Shown piece by piece: positions 32,096 to 42,341 of a stretch of 64,000 bases of DNA (within the stretch, counting starts at the first letter, position 1; each line of letters begins with the position of its first letter). The stretch comes from PVC group bacterium (GTDB taxonomy: Bacteria > Verrucomicrobiota > Kiritimatiellia > CAIKKV01 > CAITUY01), in the NCBI GenBank assembly GCA_945870225.1, contig CAMBRF010000016.1:1-64000 (forward strand), given 5' to 3'. The notes beneath the pieces were generated by a model that had not been told where the DNA came from, made no database searches, and worked only from the letters and a program-made list of their open reading frames with translations. The position numbers were made by a program, and so were the translations under genes.

Positions 32096-34018
32096 TCAGG
32101 CGTTGCGGAAGTCGATCATGGTTTGCCGGTAGGCTTCGGGCAATCCGACGTCAAAGCGGCGGCCTTTGACGACCACGCCGACAAAACCCTCGTCCTTCCT
32201 GATTTCATCGAGGCAGGAGGTCAATTGGAACTCGCCCCGTTCGCGGATGTTGTGCCGGATATGTTCCCCAAGCCGCTCGAAGATTTGCGGTGTGAGGATG
32301 TAGATGCCGAAAACGGTCAGCACCGTGTCAGGCTCCAGTCCTTCAACCTGGAGGTTGGTTCGCGCATAATCCATGTCGGGCTTTTCGGCAAACTCCGAAA
32401 TGTTGAGAATGCTCCGGTTGTTCTGCCAGACCCCGGCGACGCAGCCGAAATGGCGCGACTCGGTGATGGGTGTGACTTGCAAGCCCACCACGCTTTGCCC
32501 CGTCTTCTCATAGACGTCCAGCAGTTGCCCCACGCAGGAACGGTCCGTCTCGGAAGCATACAGGTGATCGCCGAGCATCAGCAGGAAAGGCTCATTCTTG
32601 ACCCAGTCGCGGGTGCAATACACGGCGTGCCCGAAGCCCTCCTGAACATCCTGGGTCAACAAACTGACCCGCCGGCCAATATCCAGAAGGTAGTTGCTGT
32701 ACTCCTGATTTTCCTTCGAGAGTTTATTGAAGTTCTCGATGGCCGGCGGGGAATTGAAGAAATCCTCAAACATGCCGAGATCATGCGTCTGGGTGATGAT
32801 CCCCACTTCCTCGATTCCGGCCTGAACGGCCTCCTCGACGATGGCGAGGATGACGGGTTTCATGCGGCCATCACGACCCATGATGGGAAACAGTTCCTTT
32901 TTGAGCGCTTTGGTGGCAGGAAAGAGCCGTGTGCCGAACCCGGCCGCAGGGATGACCGCCTTGCGCACACGGCGGCCCGCTTGGATGACCAGGCTGAGGC
33001 AGGTCATGCCGAGTTCCTTTTGGATGATCTCAACGACTTTTGCCTGGGTTTCCTCGTCCTTCATGATGAACTGGGCGGTGCCGTCACCCTGTGATCCCAC
33101 GCCTTTCCCTCCCAGGATATGGGGCTGGAGCGGGCCGTAGTTCAACACTTTGTGCAGGACCGGGGCGGTCAACTGGGAAGGGCAGGCCGGCCCGCAGTAC
33201 TCATCGAATTTCGACTGGGCTTCGCGCATGAGCAGGCCTACGCGCCGGGCATCGCCCGCCTTCAGCGCCTCGACGGCCTCTGCCGTGAGCCCGGCGCTGA
33301 TCGGTCCGAGGTATTGCTGAACGCCGCGCTGGACCTCGTTTTCGGCGAAGGGATAGCAGTGATTCAGGTGGTTTAGAATCTCCTTGGTGTCCTTGCCGGC
33401 ATGCAGATCCACGATGACGAAGTGGAGGTTTCTGGGAATGGTCAGCTCGGCGACGTCGATCCGGTCCCCGTCAAAGGTCATCAGGATCGGCCTGTTCCCA
33501 TAGGCGCAGCCTTGATCCATGCGGCCGCATCGCGATGGGGTGGTGATCTCGCCGAGATAGGCGAACTCCATTTCGCCGCGGACCGTCATCTTGAGGTCAT
33601 ACAGGCGATTAAAGGCGCGGGCCACCATCACACAAACCGCGGCGCTGGAGGAGAGCCCCTTCCGGATGGGCAGATCGGTGAGGTAGTTGTTGATTTCCAG
33701 CCCCCGCACGCGGTAGTGCGTGAGCACTTGGTAGGCGACGCCGGCGGCATAGCTGAAGAACCCGCCTTTCTGCGCTTCGGCCAGCAGGGCCTCGCGGTCC
33801 ATCGGGACCTCGAATGGCCCGAACGGGGTACCGTCGCTGAGAGTGGTCCTGACCACGAGTTTGGAGGGATGGGGGTTAACCTCGGCGTGCAGGCCCTGGT
33901 TGGTTCCCGTGATGATGGTGAAGCCTTTTTCGAGTTCACCGTTGATGCGCCGGTAGCTGCCAGCCCAGTCACTGTGTTCCCCAAATAGACAAATCCGTCC
34001 CGGTACGAAGAGTTTCAT
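32096..34018 (-). CDS. GHMP sugar kinase fused to GalU-type nucleotidyltransferase
   Basis: A 640-residue cytoplasmic fusion. Residues 1-345 are a GHMP kinase related to galactokinase: PGRICLFGEHSDW at 6-18, the ATP loop PIRKGLSSSAA at 117-127, catalytic-Asp region GRMDQG at 165-170 and motif 3 KGVGSQGDGTAQF at 305-317. Residues 353-640 are a sugar-1-phosphate uridylyltransferase of the GalU type, opening AVIPAAGFGTRLFPATK. Together they could convert a free sugar to the 1-phosphate and then a UDP-sugar, like the eukaryotic and Bacteroides fucose-salvage fusion FKP but with other domain types and order. Strong AGGAGG ribosome site. A GmhB-like phosphatase gene ends 58 bases upstream. Confidence 0.88.
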   Translation of the reverse strand: MKLFVPGRICLFGEHSDWAGSYRRINGELEKGFTIITGTNQGLHAEVNPHPSKLVVRTTLSDGTPFGPFEVPMDREALLAEAQKGGFFSYAAGVAYQVLTHYRVRGLEINNYLTDLPIRKGLSSSAAVCVMVARAFNRLYDLKMTVRGEMEFAYLGEITTPSRCGRMDQGCAYGNRPILMTFDGDRIDVAELTIPRNLHFVIVDLHAGKDTKEILNHLNHCYPFAENEVQRGVQQYLGPISAGLTAEAVEALKAGDARRVGLLMREAQSKFDEYCGPACPSQLTAPVLHKVLNYGPLQPHILGGKGVGSQGDGTAQFIMKDEETQAKVVEIIQKELGMTCLSLVIQAGRRVRKAVIPAAGFGTRLFPATKALKKELFPIMGRDGRMKPVILAIVEEAVQAGIEEVGIITQTHDLGMFEDFFNSPPAIENFNKLSKENQEYSNYLLDIGRRVSLLTQDVQEGFGHAVYCTRDWVKNEPFLLMLGDHLYASETDRSCVGQLLDVYEKTGQSVVGLQVTPITESRHFGCVAGVWQNNRSILNISEFAEKPDMDYARTNLQVEGLEPDTVLTVFGIYILTPQIFERLGEHIRHNIRERGEFQLTSCLDEIRKDEGFVGVVVKGRRFDVGLPEAYRQTMIDFRNA

Positions 34019-34076: not shown

Positions 34077-34616
34077 TTAGCGGCCCTCAAGGATTTTGGC
34101 AATGGAGGATCGTAACGCGGCCATGTCGGCCACCTGTCGATCCGCCTGGTCCGAGGTCTCCGCCGCATTGACGAGAATGGTGTGGCATCCGGCGGCTTTT
34201 CCCGCCTCCACGTCTTTCAACGAGTCGCCGATCATCCACGAGTGGCTGAGATCGATGCCGTGCCGCCTGGCCGCCTCGAGGAGCATGCCAGGCTTCGGCT
34301 TGCGGCATTCGCACTGGTTGCGGTCATGCGGGCAATAAAACACGTCCAGCAGTTCAAGCCCGTACTGTTCCTTCAGGACGGTACGCAGGCGGTGGTGCAG
34401 GTCATCCACCGTGGCGGCCGTCATGATTCCCCGTGCGACGCCACGCTGGTTCGATACAATCACCGCCTCATAGCCTTTTTGGTGGATGAGGCGCAGGACC
34501 TCCACGAATTCGGGCAGTAGGTGAAAATCAGCCCACCGTTCGACATAACCGGGGCCGGGATGCCGGTTCACAATACCGTCGCGGTCGAAGAAGACGCACT
34601 TCAGGTTTGGCTTCAT
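34077..34616 (-). CDS. GmhB-like HAD phosphatase
   Basis: A 179-residue HAD-superfamily phosphatase of the IIIA type. Nucleophile motif FDRDG (Asp11, Asp13) starts the protein, motif II is VSNQRG near 55, motif III is KPKPGML and motif IV is IGDSLKDVEAG near 127. The zinc-binding set Cys95, His97, Cys102 and Cys104 (CPHDRNQCEC) is that of D,D-heptose 1,7-bisphosphate 7-phosphatase (GmhB), and histidinol phosphatase shares it. It is translationally coupled to the upstream gene (4-base overlap) and precedes the kinase fusion. Together they can form a phosphorylate, dephosphorylate and activate series. Confidence 0.85.
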   Translation of the reverse strand: MKPNLKCVFFDRDGIVNRHPGPGYVERWADFHLLPEFVEVLRLIHQKGYEAVIVSNQRGVARGIMTAATVDDLHHRLRTVLKEQYGLELLDVFYCPHDRNQCECRKPKPGMLLEAARRHGIDLSHSWMIGDSLKDVEAGKAAGCHTILVNAAETSDQADRQVADMAALRSSIAKILEGR

Positions 34617-35980
34617 AACGATCCCTTCACTTCAAAAGTCTTTTCCGTGAATATCTGCGCGCGCACCGATCCCACCGCGTAGGCCACGGCGCGCAGGGTA
34701 TGGGGGCCGGGTTTCAAACCAGCTGGATCCAACCGGACCGTGGGCGTCTTCCCCAGGGGCTGCAGCGTCTTGCCGTCCAGTAGAAACAGGAACCGCTGAA
34801 AGGTTTCGCCCTGCCGGGCCTCGACCGCCGCTTCCACCGTCACCGCCTCCTGCAAGGTTTCCGTCTCCAGGCCGCGCAGCCTCAAGGTCGAGGCGGGGGC
34901 CCACGGGGAGGTGAGGGGATCGCCCAGCAGCAGGATTTGCAGCGGACAGCGGAGGGCCTGGTAAAAACTTTCCAGGGTGGTGCAGCCTGCGGCCCAGTGG
35001 ACGTAGAACCGCGCATGCGTAAACTTGTTCCAATAGGCGTAGGGTTCCGTAACGGTTCCTGCGGAGGCGCTGGCCCCGGCCCGGATCCATTCCGTGATCT
35101 TGGTCTGATCGGATGGGTCGAACACGGCTCCGAAACTGGTCAGGTGTTCGGCCATGGCGCCCGGGCGGAAGGTTCGGGTTGAACTCATCACCACAACGGA
35201 GGCCCCCAGCATGGCCCCGAGAATATCCGGAGCGGACTCGGGCAAGGCGTTGGTGAGGACAGCGGTGACTCCCTGTGCCCGGAGTTCCTGAACGGCGGGT
35301 GCGAACTCCCATTCACGGCAACGCGAGCGGACGTCGGTGTTGGTGACAAAGTAGACGGTTCCCGCCGGGCGCGTGCCGTCAGCCTGTCTGCCCCTTTGCA
35401 GGCAGGCCAGAACCTCGTCCCGGGTATTGCCGTTCGGGCCGATGTACCCGAGCATCATGCTGGGGATGGGCATGTTCTTCCCGAACCAGGCGCGCGGGAT
35501 GTCCAGCGACTGGGCGGGGAATCCCGCGATCCGCGCGGTCTCGGGGCCGGCGAATAGAGGGGAAGCGTAGAGGCCCTTGGCCACGGCGTCGCGTCCGGGG
35601 AACTGATTGCGCAGGAAGGTGAGGCCTTGAATGGAAACGGGGGGATCCTTCCTGATGCGAAGCGGTATATCGACGGAGTAGGCCCAGGCTAGAATATGAT
35701 CGTCCAGTCCGCGCTCCCTCACGGCCGCCTGGGCCGGGGTCCAGATTTTTTCAGTAAACGTCTCGGGAGATATCTCCAGTTCCAGGGTTGCTGGCAGGTC
35801 CAGGGCGACGATGTTGACCTCCGGCACCTGGCGCCGTGTGGCATAGTCACGGGCAATAGCCATGGAATTGGTGGAATTGCGATTGGCCAGAACCAGCAGC
35901 TCATGGGGCCCCAAGGCCAGGCTGGTTTGGGTCATCCATCCCAGAATACAGACTGTCAGGAAACGACGCATGGCGGTCAT
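34613..35980 (-). CDS. TIGR03790-family exported protein
   Basis: A 455-residue protein with a signal-like hydrophobic start (MTAMRRFLTVCILGW, then a Gln-Thr-Ser-Leu-Ala region) followed by the opening HELLVLANRNSTNSMAIARDYATRR and VNIVALDLP that mark the TIGR03790 family, whose function is unknown. The middle region has IPSMMLGYIGPNGNTRDEVL and later a repeated pattern of hydrophobic strands; the C-terminus is a small beta domain. No start has a ribosome site; ATG 35980 is given, 35971 is equally possible. It overlaps the GmhB-like gene by four bases, so it belongs with the sugar-activation genes. Role unknown. Confidence 0.7.
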   Translation of the reverse strand: MTAMRRFLTVCILGWMTQTSLALGPHELLVLANRNSTNSMAIARDYATRRQVPEVNIVALDLPATLELEISPETFTEKIWTPAQAAVRERGLDDHILAWAYSVDIPLRIRKDPPVSIQGLTFLRNQFPGRDAVAKGLYASPLFAGPETARIAGFPAQSLDIPRAWFGKNMPIPSMMLGYIGPNGNTRDEVLACLQRGRQADGTRPAGTVYFVTNTDVRSRCREWEFAPAVQELRAQGVTAVLTNALPESAPDILGAMLGASVVVMSSTRTFRPGAMAEHLTSFGAVFDPSDQTKITEWIRAGASASAGTVTEPYAYWNKFTHARFYVHWAAGCTTLESFYQALRCPLQILLLGDPLTSPWAPASTLRLRGLETETLQEAVTVEAAVEARQGETFQRFLFLLDGKTLQPLGKTPTVRLDPAGLKPGPHTLRAVAYAVGSVRAQIFTEKTFEVKGSL

Positions 35981-36101
35981 TCTAGGGATCAGCGCCAGGT
36001 TCTTCAATTCGAATAGCGGAAAAAGCGACGCGACAGAATGGGTTCATGCCGCTAGTATCCACAGAACATCAGCCCATGATAAGCCACTGGAGTGAAACCG
36101 C

Positions 36102-39920: not shown

Positions 39921-42341
39921 ATGAAAACGAAGCCACTTTCCTCGGAACTGCTCTACAAAATGGATGCCTATTGGCGTGCCGCGAACTACCTCTCGGTCGG
40001 GCAGATCTATCTCTATGACAACCCGCTGCTGAAACGTCCGCTGGCGCTCGCGGATATCAAGCACATATTGCTGGGACACTGGGGCACGACGCCGGGGCAG
40101 AACTTCATTTACGTGCACTTGAACCGGGTCATCAAGAAATACGACCTCGATATGATTTACGTCTCCGGCCCTGGGCATGGCGGCCCCGCCGTAGTGAGCA
40201 ACACGTATCTCGAAGGCACCTACAGCGAAATCTATCCCAACATCAGTCAGGATGAGATCGGGTTGCAAAAGCTTTTCAAGCAGTTCTCCTTTCCCGGTGG
40301 CATTCCCAGCCATGCCTCGCCGGAATGTCCCGGCTCAATTCACGAAGGCGGCGAGCTCGGTTATTCTTTGAGCCATTCGTTTGGCGCGGTGTTCGACAAT
40401 CCTGATCTTATCGTCGCCTGCTGCGTCGGCGATGGCGAGGCGGAAACCGGACCGCTGGCGACATCGTGGCAATCCAACAAGTTCCTCAATCCCGTCACGG
40501 ACGGCGCGGTGCTGCCCATACTGCATCTTAACGGTTACAAGATCGCCAGCCCGACCATTCTCGCACGCATCGAACCGGAGGAACTCGACCAGTTGCTGCG
40601 CGGCAACGGCTGGACGCCGTATTACGTCGAAGGACATGAGCCGGCGCTGATGCACGCCGCCATGGCCGCGACGCTGGATCAGGCGGTGGAGGAGATCAAA
40701 CGCATTCAGCACGAAGCCCGCGTCAACGGCAACACCAGGCGCCCGCGCTGGCCGATGATCGTCCTCAAATCCCCAAAGGGCTGGACAGGGCCAAAATGGG
40801 TGGATGGCCTGCAAATTGAAGGTACGTTCCGCGCGCATCAGGTGCCGCTCTCTGCTCCGCGGGCGAATCCCGAACATCTTAAGCTGCTGGAAGACTGGTT
40901 ACGCAGCTACCGGCCGGAGGAACTCTTCGACGAGCAGGGGCGGCTGAAACCTGGACTCGCCGAACTCGCGCCGAAGGGCGATCGCCGTATGGGCGCCAAT
41001 CCGCACGCGAATGGCGGACTGCTTTTGCGCGACCTGATCATGCCGGACTTTCGGAAGTATGCGGTCGATGTGCCGTCTTCCGGGTCGGTTCGTGCCGCCG
41101 ACGCACATGAGCTAGGCGTCTTTCTGCGCGATGTGGCCACGCTCAACCGGGAACAGCGCAATTTCAGAATCTTCGGCCCCGACGAAACGCTCTCCAACCG
41201 CCTGACCGCCGTGTTTGAGGTGACCAACAGGCAATGGGACGCCCGGGTGCAGGATAACGACGAGTTCCTCGCCCAGGACGGTCGCGTCATGGAGATGTTG
41301 AGCGAGCATCAGTGCGAGGGCTGGCTCGAAGGCTACCTGCTGACCGGTCGGCATGGACTATTCAACTGCTACGAGGCCTTCGTCCACATCATCGACTCGA
41401 TGTTTAACCAGCACGCTAAGTGGCTGAAAGTCACCGCGGAGCTGCCGTGGCGGCGTAAGATCGCCTCGCTGAATTATCTACTCGCCTCCCATGTCTGGCA
41501 GCAAATGCACAACGGCTTCACCCATCAGGATCCCGGGTTCATCGATCATGTCGTGAATAAGAAAGCCTCCGTCGTGCGCGTGTATCTGCCGCCGGATGCC
41601 AACTGCCTATTGTCGGTGTGGGACCACTGCCTGCGCAGCCGCCACTATGTCAACGTCGTGATCGCAGGCAAGTATCAAGCGCCCCAGTGGCTGACCATGG
41701 ACGCCGCCGTCAGGCACTGTGCCGAGGGTATCGGCGTCTGGCAGTGGGCCAGCAGCGACGCCGGCGCCGAACCCGATGTCGTCATGGCCTGCTGTGGCGA
41801 CGTGCCCACGTTGGAGACGCTTGCTGCCGTCTCCATCCTGCGTGAGCATCTGCCCGACTTGAAAGTTCGCGTCGTCAATGTCGTGGACCTGATGAAGCTG
41901 GAACCTCAGAGCGAACACCCGCACGGGTTGAGCGACGCGGCGTTCGACGCGCTGTTCACCAAGGACAAACACATCATCTTCGCCTTTCATGGCTACCCGT
42001 GGTTGATCCACCGGCTCACCTACCGCCGCACCAACCACGCCAACCTCCACGTCCGCGGCTACAAGGAGGAAGGCACCATCACGACGCCCTTCGACATGAC
42101 GGTGCTGAACGACATCGACCGCTTCCATCTCGTGATGGACGTGATCGACCGCCTGCCCCAAACCGGCACCAAGGGACAAGCCCTGAAGCAGCAACTCTCA
42201 GACAAGCTGCTCGAGCACAAGCAATATATCGACCAGAACGGCGTAGATCTGCCGGAAATTCAGAACTGGAAGTGGGGGGCTCCCCAGGGACAGGCAAATA
42301 GGACTATCCGGGGTGAGGTTACCCCGGCTCCAAAGGCATGA
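39921..42341 (+). CDS. xfp: Xylulose-5-phosphate/fructose-6-phosphate phosphoketolase
   Basis: Thiamine-diphosphate enzyme that cleaves xylulose 5-phosphate or fructose 6-phosphate with phosphate to acetyl phosphate plus a sugar phosphate. The 806-residue protein has [19 protein letters not shown], the ThDP-binding GPGHGGPA near 82-90, [20 protein letters not shown] (about 130-150) and [14 protein letters not shown] near 172, then the pyrimidine-binding and C-terminal domains. Length is typical (about 790-825). A purine-rich ribosome site precedes the ATG. It provides a carbon-saving route to acetyl-CoA and ATP. It stands alone, downstream of a deleted HAD gene. Confidence 0.95.

Follow-up and report, generated by a model that had tools for sequence, protein, structure and literature searches.

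A GHMP kinase fused to a GalU-like uridylyltransferase: a widespread bacterial protein and its predicted route from free sugar to UDP-sugar

The window analysed here, a stretch of DNA of 64,000 nucleotides, encodes a genuine single protein with two complete sugar-activating enzyme domains, a GHMP kinase followed by a GalU-like uridylyltransferase. From it we infer two activities, their coupling, a sugar and a pathway: with a probability of roughly two in three, the protein is a bifunctional sugar-1-kinase/UDP-sugar pyrophosphorylase whose substrate is a neutral hexose (galactose or glucose), neither a uronic acid nor a heptose phosphate, and whose product goes into glycan synthesis. The fusion is strongly conserved and widespread, and it matches no function-specific curated family; it would extend the small set of known kinase/pyrophosphorylase fusions by one that puts the kinase first, and it may offer a practical single-enzyme route to a UDP-sugar.

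Results and discussion

One reading frame with two enzyme domains

The fusion is encoded on the minus strand (32096-34018) by an uninterrupted, ATG-initiated reading frame of 640 aa, with a strong AGGAGG-type ribosome-binding site immediately 5' of the ATG (minus-strand reading ...aggagggggtaacgATG). The GHMP kinase extends from residue 1 to ~346 and is followed, after a few linker residues, by the GalU-like uridylyltransferase (351-640), which opens with VRKAVIPAAGFGTR at residue 351; the two domains are thus joined almost without a linker. AlphaFold2 modelled the whole chain with a pLDDT of 87 and a pTM of 0.72, its confidence being low at the phosphate loops 118-122 and 361-371; one half of the model matches UDP-glucose pyrophosphorylases in structure and the other matches galactokinase. 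The original prediction of two complete enzymes in one 640-residue frame, kinase first, is borne out by the single ORF, the Pfam domains and the folds, and the structure prediction and family search that it proposed for each half assigned both of them (AlphaFold2/Foldseek, Pfam, NCBIfam). That a frameshift, or a sequencing or assembly artefact, created the join is practically inconceivable, as the same fused length recurs in about 100 full-length homologous loci from many separate assemblies and nothing was found in favour of an artefact.

Table 1. Coordinates of the two halves of the fusion and of its upstream neighbours in the window.
Feature	Position	Strand	Evidence
GHMP sugar-1-kinase half (predicted), residues 1-350	32969..34018	-	Pfam PF00288; Foldseek galactokinases; invariant residues
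GalU-like UTP:sugar-1-phosphate uridylyltransferase half (predicted), residues 351-640 and stop	32096..32968	-	Pfam PF00483; TIGR01099 below cut-off; Foldseek
HAD-IIIA phosphatase, GmhB-like	34077..34616	-	NF006506, 155.7 bits, below cut-off of 178
TIGR03790 family protein	34613..36007	-	TIGR03790, 107 bits, cut-off 67

The kinase half

Pfam GHMP_kinases_N (PF00288) matches residues 90-174 with 38.2 bits (gathering threshold 22.3, E 1.7e-9), and the SSSAA phosphate loop and a C-terminal glycine motif likewise place this half in the GHMP kinase superfamily; PF08544, the C-terminal domain, scores below its cut-off, with the whole domain being backed by the fold search. The kinase half alone was modelled by AlphaFold2 with a pLDDT of 93 and a pTM of 0.90. 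Its nearest Foldseek neighbours are galactokinases (2cz9, 2dei, 1s4e, 1pie and human GALK1), followed by mevalonate kinases, and in a profile search of PDB sequences galactokinase reached 3e-14 and heptose kinases 3e-4 or worse. The motifs comprise the sugar motif PGRICLFGEHSDWAG, the phosphate loop KGLSSSAA, the catalytic GRMDQ and motif 3, GGKGVGSQGDG; GEHSDWAG holds the Glu, His and Asp which we take to be those that contact the sugar hydroxyls in galactokinase (Glu43/His44/Asp46).

Residue conservation was read from 104 fused sequences, some of them near-identical, which align end to end and in which nearly every motif residue of the two halves is invariant. In the kinase half, R8, E14, H15, D17, W18, S124, S125, E157, R166, D168 and Q169 are invariant, and the phosphate-loop residues are invariant or nearly so, as are the galactokinase sugar-binding motif GEHxD and the catalytic MDQ.

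The view that the kinase resembles galactokinase therefore stands, given its best structural neighbours and the preserved GEHSD...MDQ motif, but the half is not GalK itself: it reaches only about 34.5-43 bits against the curated cut-off of 226.65 for TIGR00131, and its other NCBIfam matches are also below cut-off (mevalonate kinase, for example, at 59 bits). In the kinase tree, which covers GalK, glucuronokinase-like and arabinokinase-like kinases, the fused kinases form a clade of their own, separate from these three; neither the invariant Arg166 next to the catalytic Asp nor the unusual motif 3 is a feature of galactokinases, and a canonical GalK is encoded by a separate gene of the same genome (C1:233176-234312, 314 bits, above the TIGR00131 cut-off). 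We speculate that the fused kinase might found a GHMP sugar-1-kinase family not yet described, acting on a substrate outside those of known members, e.g. free glucose phosphorylated at C1. We consider this unlikely; such a family would give bacteria of many phyla a two-step path from free sugar to UDP-sugar without hexokinase and phosphoglucomutase.

The transferase half

The second half matches Pfam NTP_transferase (PF00483) at residues 353-633 with 74.1 bits (gathering threshold 21.2, E 1.7e-20), and this score, the GxGTR signature, the metal Asp and EKP make it a member of the sugar-1-phosphate nucleotidyltransferase superfamily; its motifs are AAGFGTR...KKE, QEGFGHAV, LGDH, EKP and RRFDVG. 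Foldseek returned UDP-glucose pyrophosphorylases (8f73, 3juk and 7o2n) with TM (target) values of 0.8-0.88, the first two being UDP-glucose complexes. Residues K370, K374, E375, H464, D484, E545, K546 and D623 are invariant in the 104 fused sequences, and R364, the GTR arginine, is kept in 99 of them. In the other five (L085, L087, L089, L132 and L133) it is replaced by Gln, Asn or His with the kinase half intact; since this arginine is gone, transferase activity has possibly been lost there, and the second step in these lineages may be dead.

A GalU-type second half had been predicted, and the likeness to GalU holds: the half shares the fold and the catalytic residues of the GalU UDP-glucose pyrophosphorylase (TIGR01099). 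It is nonetheless not GalU proper, as it scores 176.8 bits against a curated cut-off of 326.8, carries the insertions GRDGRMKP and DYARTNLQVEGLEPD, and falls in the transferase tree into a clade separate from the GalU of its own genome (371 bits). Being below the cut-off for both GalK and GalU, the fusion belongs under neither name. A search for a separate GalU of the canonical kind or a UGP2-type gene (PF01704) found none in seven of the fusion-bearing genomes (G030, G035, G043, G076, G085, G097 and G104); it leaves room for RmlA-like and other non-orthologous enzymes and includes some incomplete genomes. The fusion is thus the only GalU-/UGP2-type candidate seen there.

Spread, split forms and the coupling of the two steps

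A genome search found the full-length fused protein in 25 of the 97 genomes of the class, its own included; the 24 related genomes (out of 96) carry it at 65-81% identity, which disposes of the concern that homologues might consistently be encoded as two proteins. Among GTDB contigs, a scan turned up 575 relatives, and the best 80 of these, some from the same genomes as in the class search, are all end-to-end fusions matched from residue 1 to 637-640. Record titles place these 80 in Kiritimatiellota, Lentisphaerota, Planctomycetota, Poribacteria, Verrucomicrobiota, Cyanobacteria, Myxococcota, Fibrobacterota (Chitinivibrionales), Goldbacteria, Sumerlaeota, Latescibacterota and a delta-proteobacterium. 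With at least ten phyla among the fused sequences, the fusion is evidently old.

The genome also holds a second copy of the fusion at 73% identity, truncated by a contig end (L158; contig C48, 4957-5454). Because this contig is syntenic and 85-89% identical with G001, a genome of another genus, the copy is probably bin contamination and was set aside.

Split forms occur in cyanobacteria, where 15 of 194 genomes have a match: two are fused, four have adjacent pairs in the same order (three of these overlapping, by mechanical ORF calls), one has both halves apart, one has the kinase only and seven have the transferase only. Nostoc plasmids carry the kinase half by itself (60-63% identity), and a Sphaerospermopsis plasmid has a short piece of the kinase next to the transferase. 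The cyanobacterial sequences form one supported clade inside the fused sequences, in the kinase tree and the transferase tree alike, and the fused member L147 is sister to the split pair L144 in both. Since the split pairs nest inside the fused clade, the simplest reading would be gene fission within cyanobacteria. The coexistence of split and fused forms there amounts to a natural test of the benefit of fusion.

These split forms bear on whether the two halves work together at all. The transferase might be a house-keeping UDP-glucose pyrophosphorylase fed by phosphoglucomutase, with the kinase acting on some other metabolite in a different branch; the cyanobacterial transferases without a kinase, the stand-alone kinases on plasmids and the several fusion-bearing genomes with no other GalU/UGP2-type gene found would all fit such a division. 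However, the adjacent halves, in the same order as in the fusion, provide a Rosetta-stone link between the two steps, and this order when split, together with fusion across many phyla, argues for consecutive steps. We therefore regard a division of labour as fairly improbable.

For the favoured bifunctional enzyme we propose that the N-terminal GHMP domain would use ATP to phosphorylate a free sugar at its anomeric hydroxyl, and that the C-terminal domain would convert the resulting sugar-1-phosphate with UTP to UDP-sugar and pyrophosphate; fusion would fix the ratio of the two steps and hold the intermediate local. A two-step route of this kind from free sugar to UDP-sugar had been envisaged from the outset, and it is plausible as a prediction from both domain assignments and the motifs.

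Which sugar?

The substrate would be a neutral hexose with a free 6-hydroxyl, that is galactose or glucose, giving UDP-Gal or UDP-Glc for glycan synthesis; we infer a neutral hexose as the best fit to the sugar motif. Galactose is weakened as a candidate because GalK is present in the same genome and, above cut-off, in 21 of 28 fusion-bearing genomes. As GalK is found in 11 of 22 genomes without the fusion, there is no sign that the fusion replaces it. A bypass of GalT was likewise considered and dropped: none of the 20 fusion-bearing class genomes tested has galT, yet neither do 20 of the 22 that lack the fusion, and its absence is hence uninformative. As an observation on the class itself, canonical galT is missing from 40 of the 42 genomes tested, and a galactokinase above cut-off is present in most.

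Galactose or a uronic acid had been considered at first, and the uronic acid is now disfavoured, both because of the invariant Glu-His-x-Asp and because a separate glucuronokinase-like GHMP kinase in the same genome overlaps a canonical galU by 4 bp (L159:7325-9210, G000 contig C3); such a kinase lies beside galU at 18 of the 21 galU loci examined. With 48% identity over 306 aa to Arabidopsis GlcAK, it is probably a plant-type glucuronokinase. Glucuronate salvage by the fusion would run from glucuronic acid through GlcA-1-P to UDP-GlcA and feed UDP-xylose, as a mirror image of the zebrafish GKUP, in which the same two steps are coupled (PMC3938481). In its favour, seven genomes have a UDP-glucuronate decarboxylase beside the fusion, on its downstream side in five of them and on its upstream side in the other two (best PDB match human UXS1, E 1e-110 to 2e-123); yet almost all genomes of the class encode UXS and NDP-sugar dehydrogenases, so that this adjacency weighs little. 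Moreover, the fused kinase is not meaningfully similar to the glucuronokinase-like protein of its own genome (20% identity, E 0.018), and it retains the acidic E14 at a position that Asn occupies in glucuronokinases. Taken with the separate gene beside galU, this makes glucuronate salvage distinctly improbable.

A GmhB-like HAD gene lies 58 bp upstream of the fusion on the same strand, and it might suggest a nucleotide-heptose enzyme, an analogue of HddA plus HddC, for which the phosphatase would take off the 7-phosphate after the first step and before the second. The gene keeps this position in about 11-12 near relatives only and is absent from the fusion's neighbourhood in other phyla, HddA/WcbL structures score far below galactokinase, and contig C3 of the own genome carries, at L199:4396-12108, an HddA-like GHMP kinase (GGGTD motif; 143 bits, below its family cut-off), a GmhB-like phosphatase, a sugar-1-P nucleotidyltransferase and a transaldolase-like gene together, a region that is likely a nucleotide-heptose cluster. 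With a lineage-specific neighbour and a separate cluster of this kind, a heptose role for the fusion has very little to recommend it. The three kinases also differ in their motifs, GNPSD in the glucuronokinase-like and GGGTD in the HddA-type protein as against GEHSDWAG in the fusion, and the presence of the other two suggests that glucuronate and heptose phosphate are probably handled by other genes of the same genome.

Gene neighbourhood

The TIGR03790 gene overlaps the HAD gene by 4 bp, and TIGR03790, HAD phosphatase and fusion probably form one transcript in the window. The TIGR03790 gene (neighbour cluster c8) is found repeatedly beside the fusion in Kiritimatiellota/Lentisphaerota relatives; the three-gene arrangement is restricted to near relatives, and no neighbour is conserved across all phyla with the fusion. 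Elsewhere, besides the UDP-glucuronate decarboxylase described above, neighbours include CysD-CysNC with an NDP-sugar dehydrogenase and a UDP-GlcNAc 2-epimerase, a bacterial sugar transferase and, in cyanobacteria, putative glycosyltransferase-like genes. As these are nucleotide-sugar and glycan genes, the neighbours point to glycan biosynthesis rather than catabolism. In L032, L034 and L050, CysNC lies directly upstream of the fusion with a 4-bp overlap, and CysD is present in two of the three (PAPS synthesis); this adjacency suggests synthesis of a sulfated glycan. Further along the window, 39921-42341 encodes a full-length phosphoketolase (1462 bits to NF003619).

Relation to known fusions

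In the open-access literature we found no paper on this fusion, for fusions of a GHMP kinase with a uridylyltransferase only FKP and GKUP, and nothing for AbGHMP (PDB 9ulx). The fusion seems to be uncharacterised and, by analogy, would work like a kinase/pyrophosphorylase of the FKP kind. FKP, the L-fucokinase/GDP-fucose pyrophosphorylase of Bacteroides, likewise combines a GHMP sugar-1-kinase and a nucleotide-sugar pyrophosphorylase in one chain that takes a free sugar to an NDP-sugar (PMC11982464). It was originally set apart by domain types and order; the order and the type of pyrophosphorylase do differ, but the kinase type does not, since the C-terminal half of FKP is also a GHMP kinase (PMC11982464). 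FKP, a GTP-using chain of 949 aa, starts with the pyrophosphorylase and includes a beta-helix domain (PMC11982464), whereas the protein described here is kinase-first, GalU-like in its transferase, and nearly linkerless at 640 aa. Given the opposite order, and with no FKP-type pyrophosphorylase domain among the Pfam/NCBIfam matches listed, it is not an FKP.

The closest known precedent, absent from the original prediction, is the zebrafish GKUP (PMC3938481). The zebrafish/Xenopus protein (DrGKUP) also fuses a GHMP kinase to a short, UTP-using nucleotidyltransferase of bacterial type, but its transferase is N-terminal and its kinase belongs to another clade (PMC3938481). The counterpart of its plant-type glucuronokinase in the present genome is the separate gene beside galU, and the low similarity of the fused kinase to that protein and their separate clades place the fusion outside GKUP. 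Bacterial homologues were reported in the zebrafish study as pyrophosphorylase only (PMC3938481); in the glucuronokinase-like and galU gene pair, bacteria have a counterpart of the zebrafish enzyme made up of two genes.

At two other loci (L141:2617-10175 and L142:6214-10628), an arabinokinase-like GHMP kinase (GGIADYSG) immediately precedes a transferase from the subfamily to which that of the fusion belongs, and the cluster around the L141 pair contains sucrose-phosphate synthase/phosphatase, a GH13 enzyme and a PfkB kinase. Together with the glucuronokinase-like and GalU pair, these indicate that the kinase/transferase logic recurs with different kinases.
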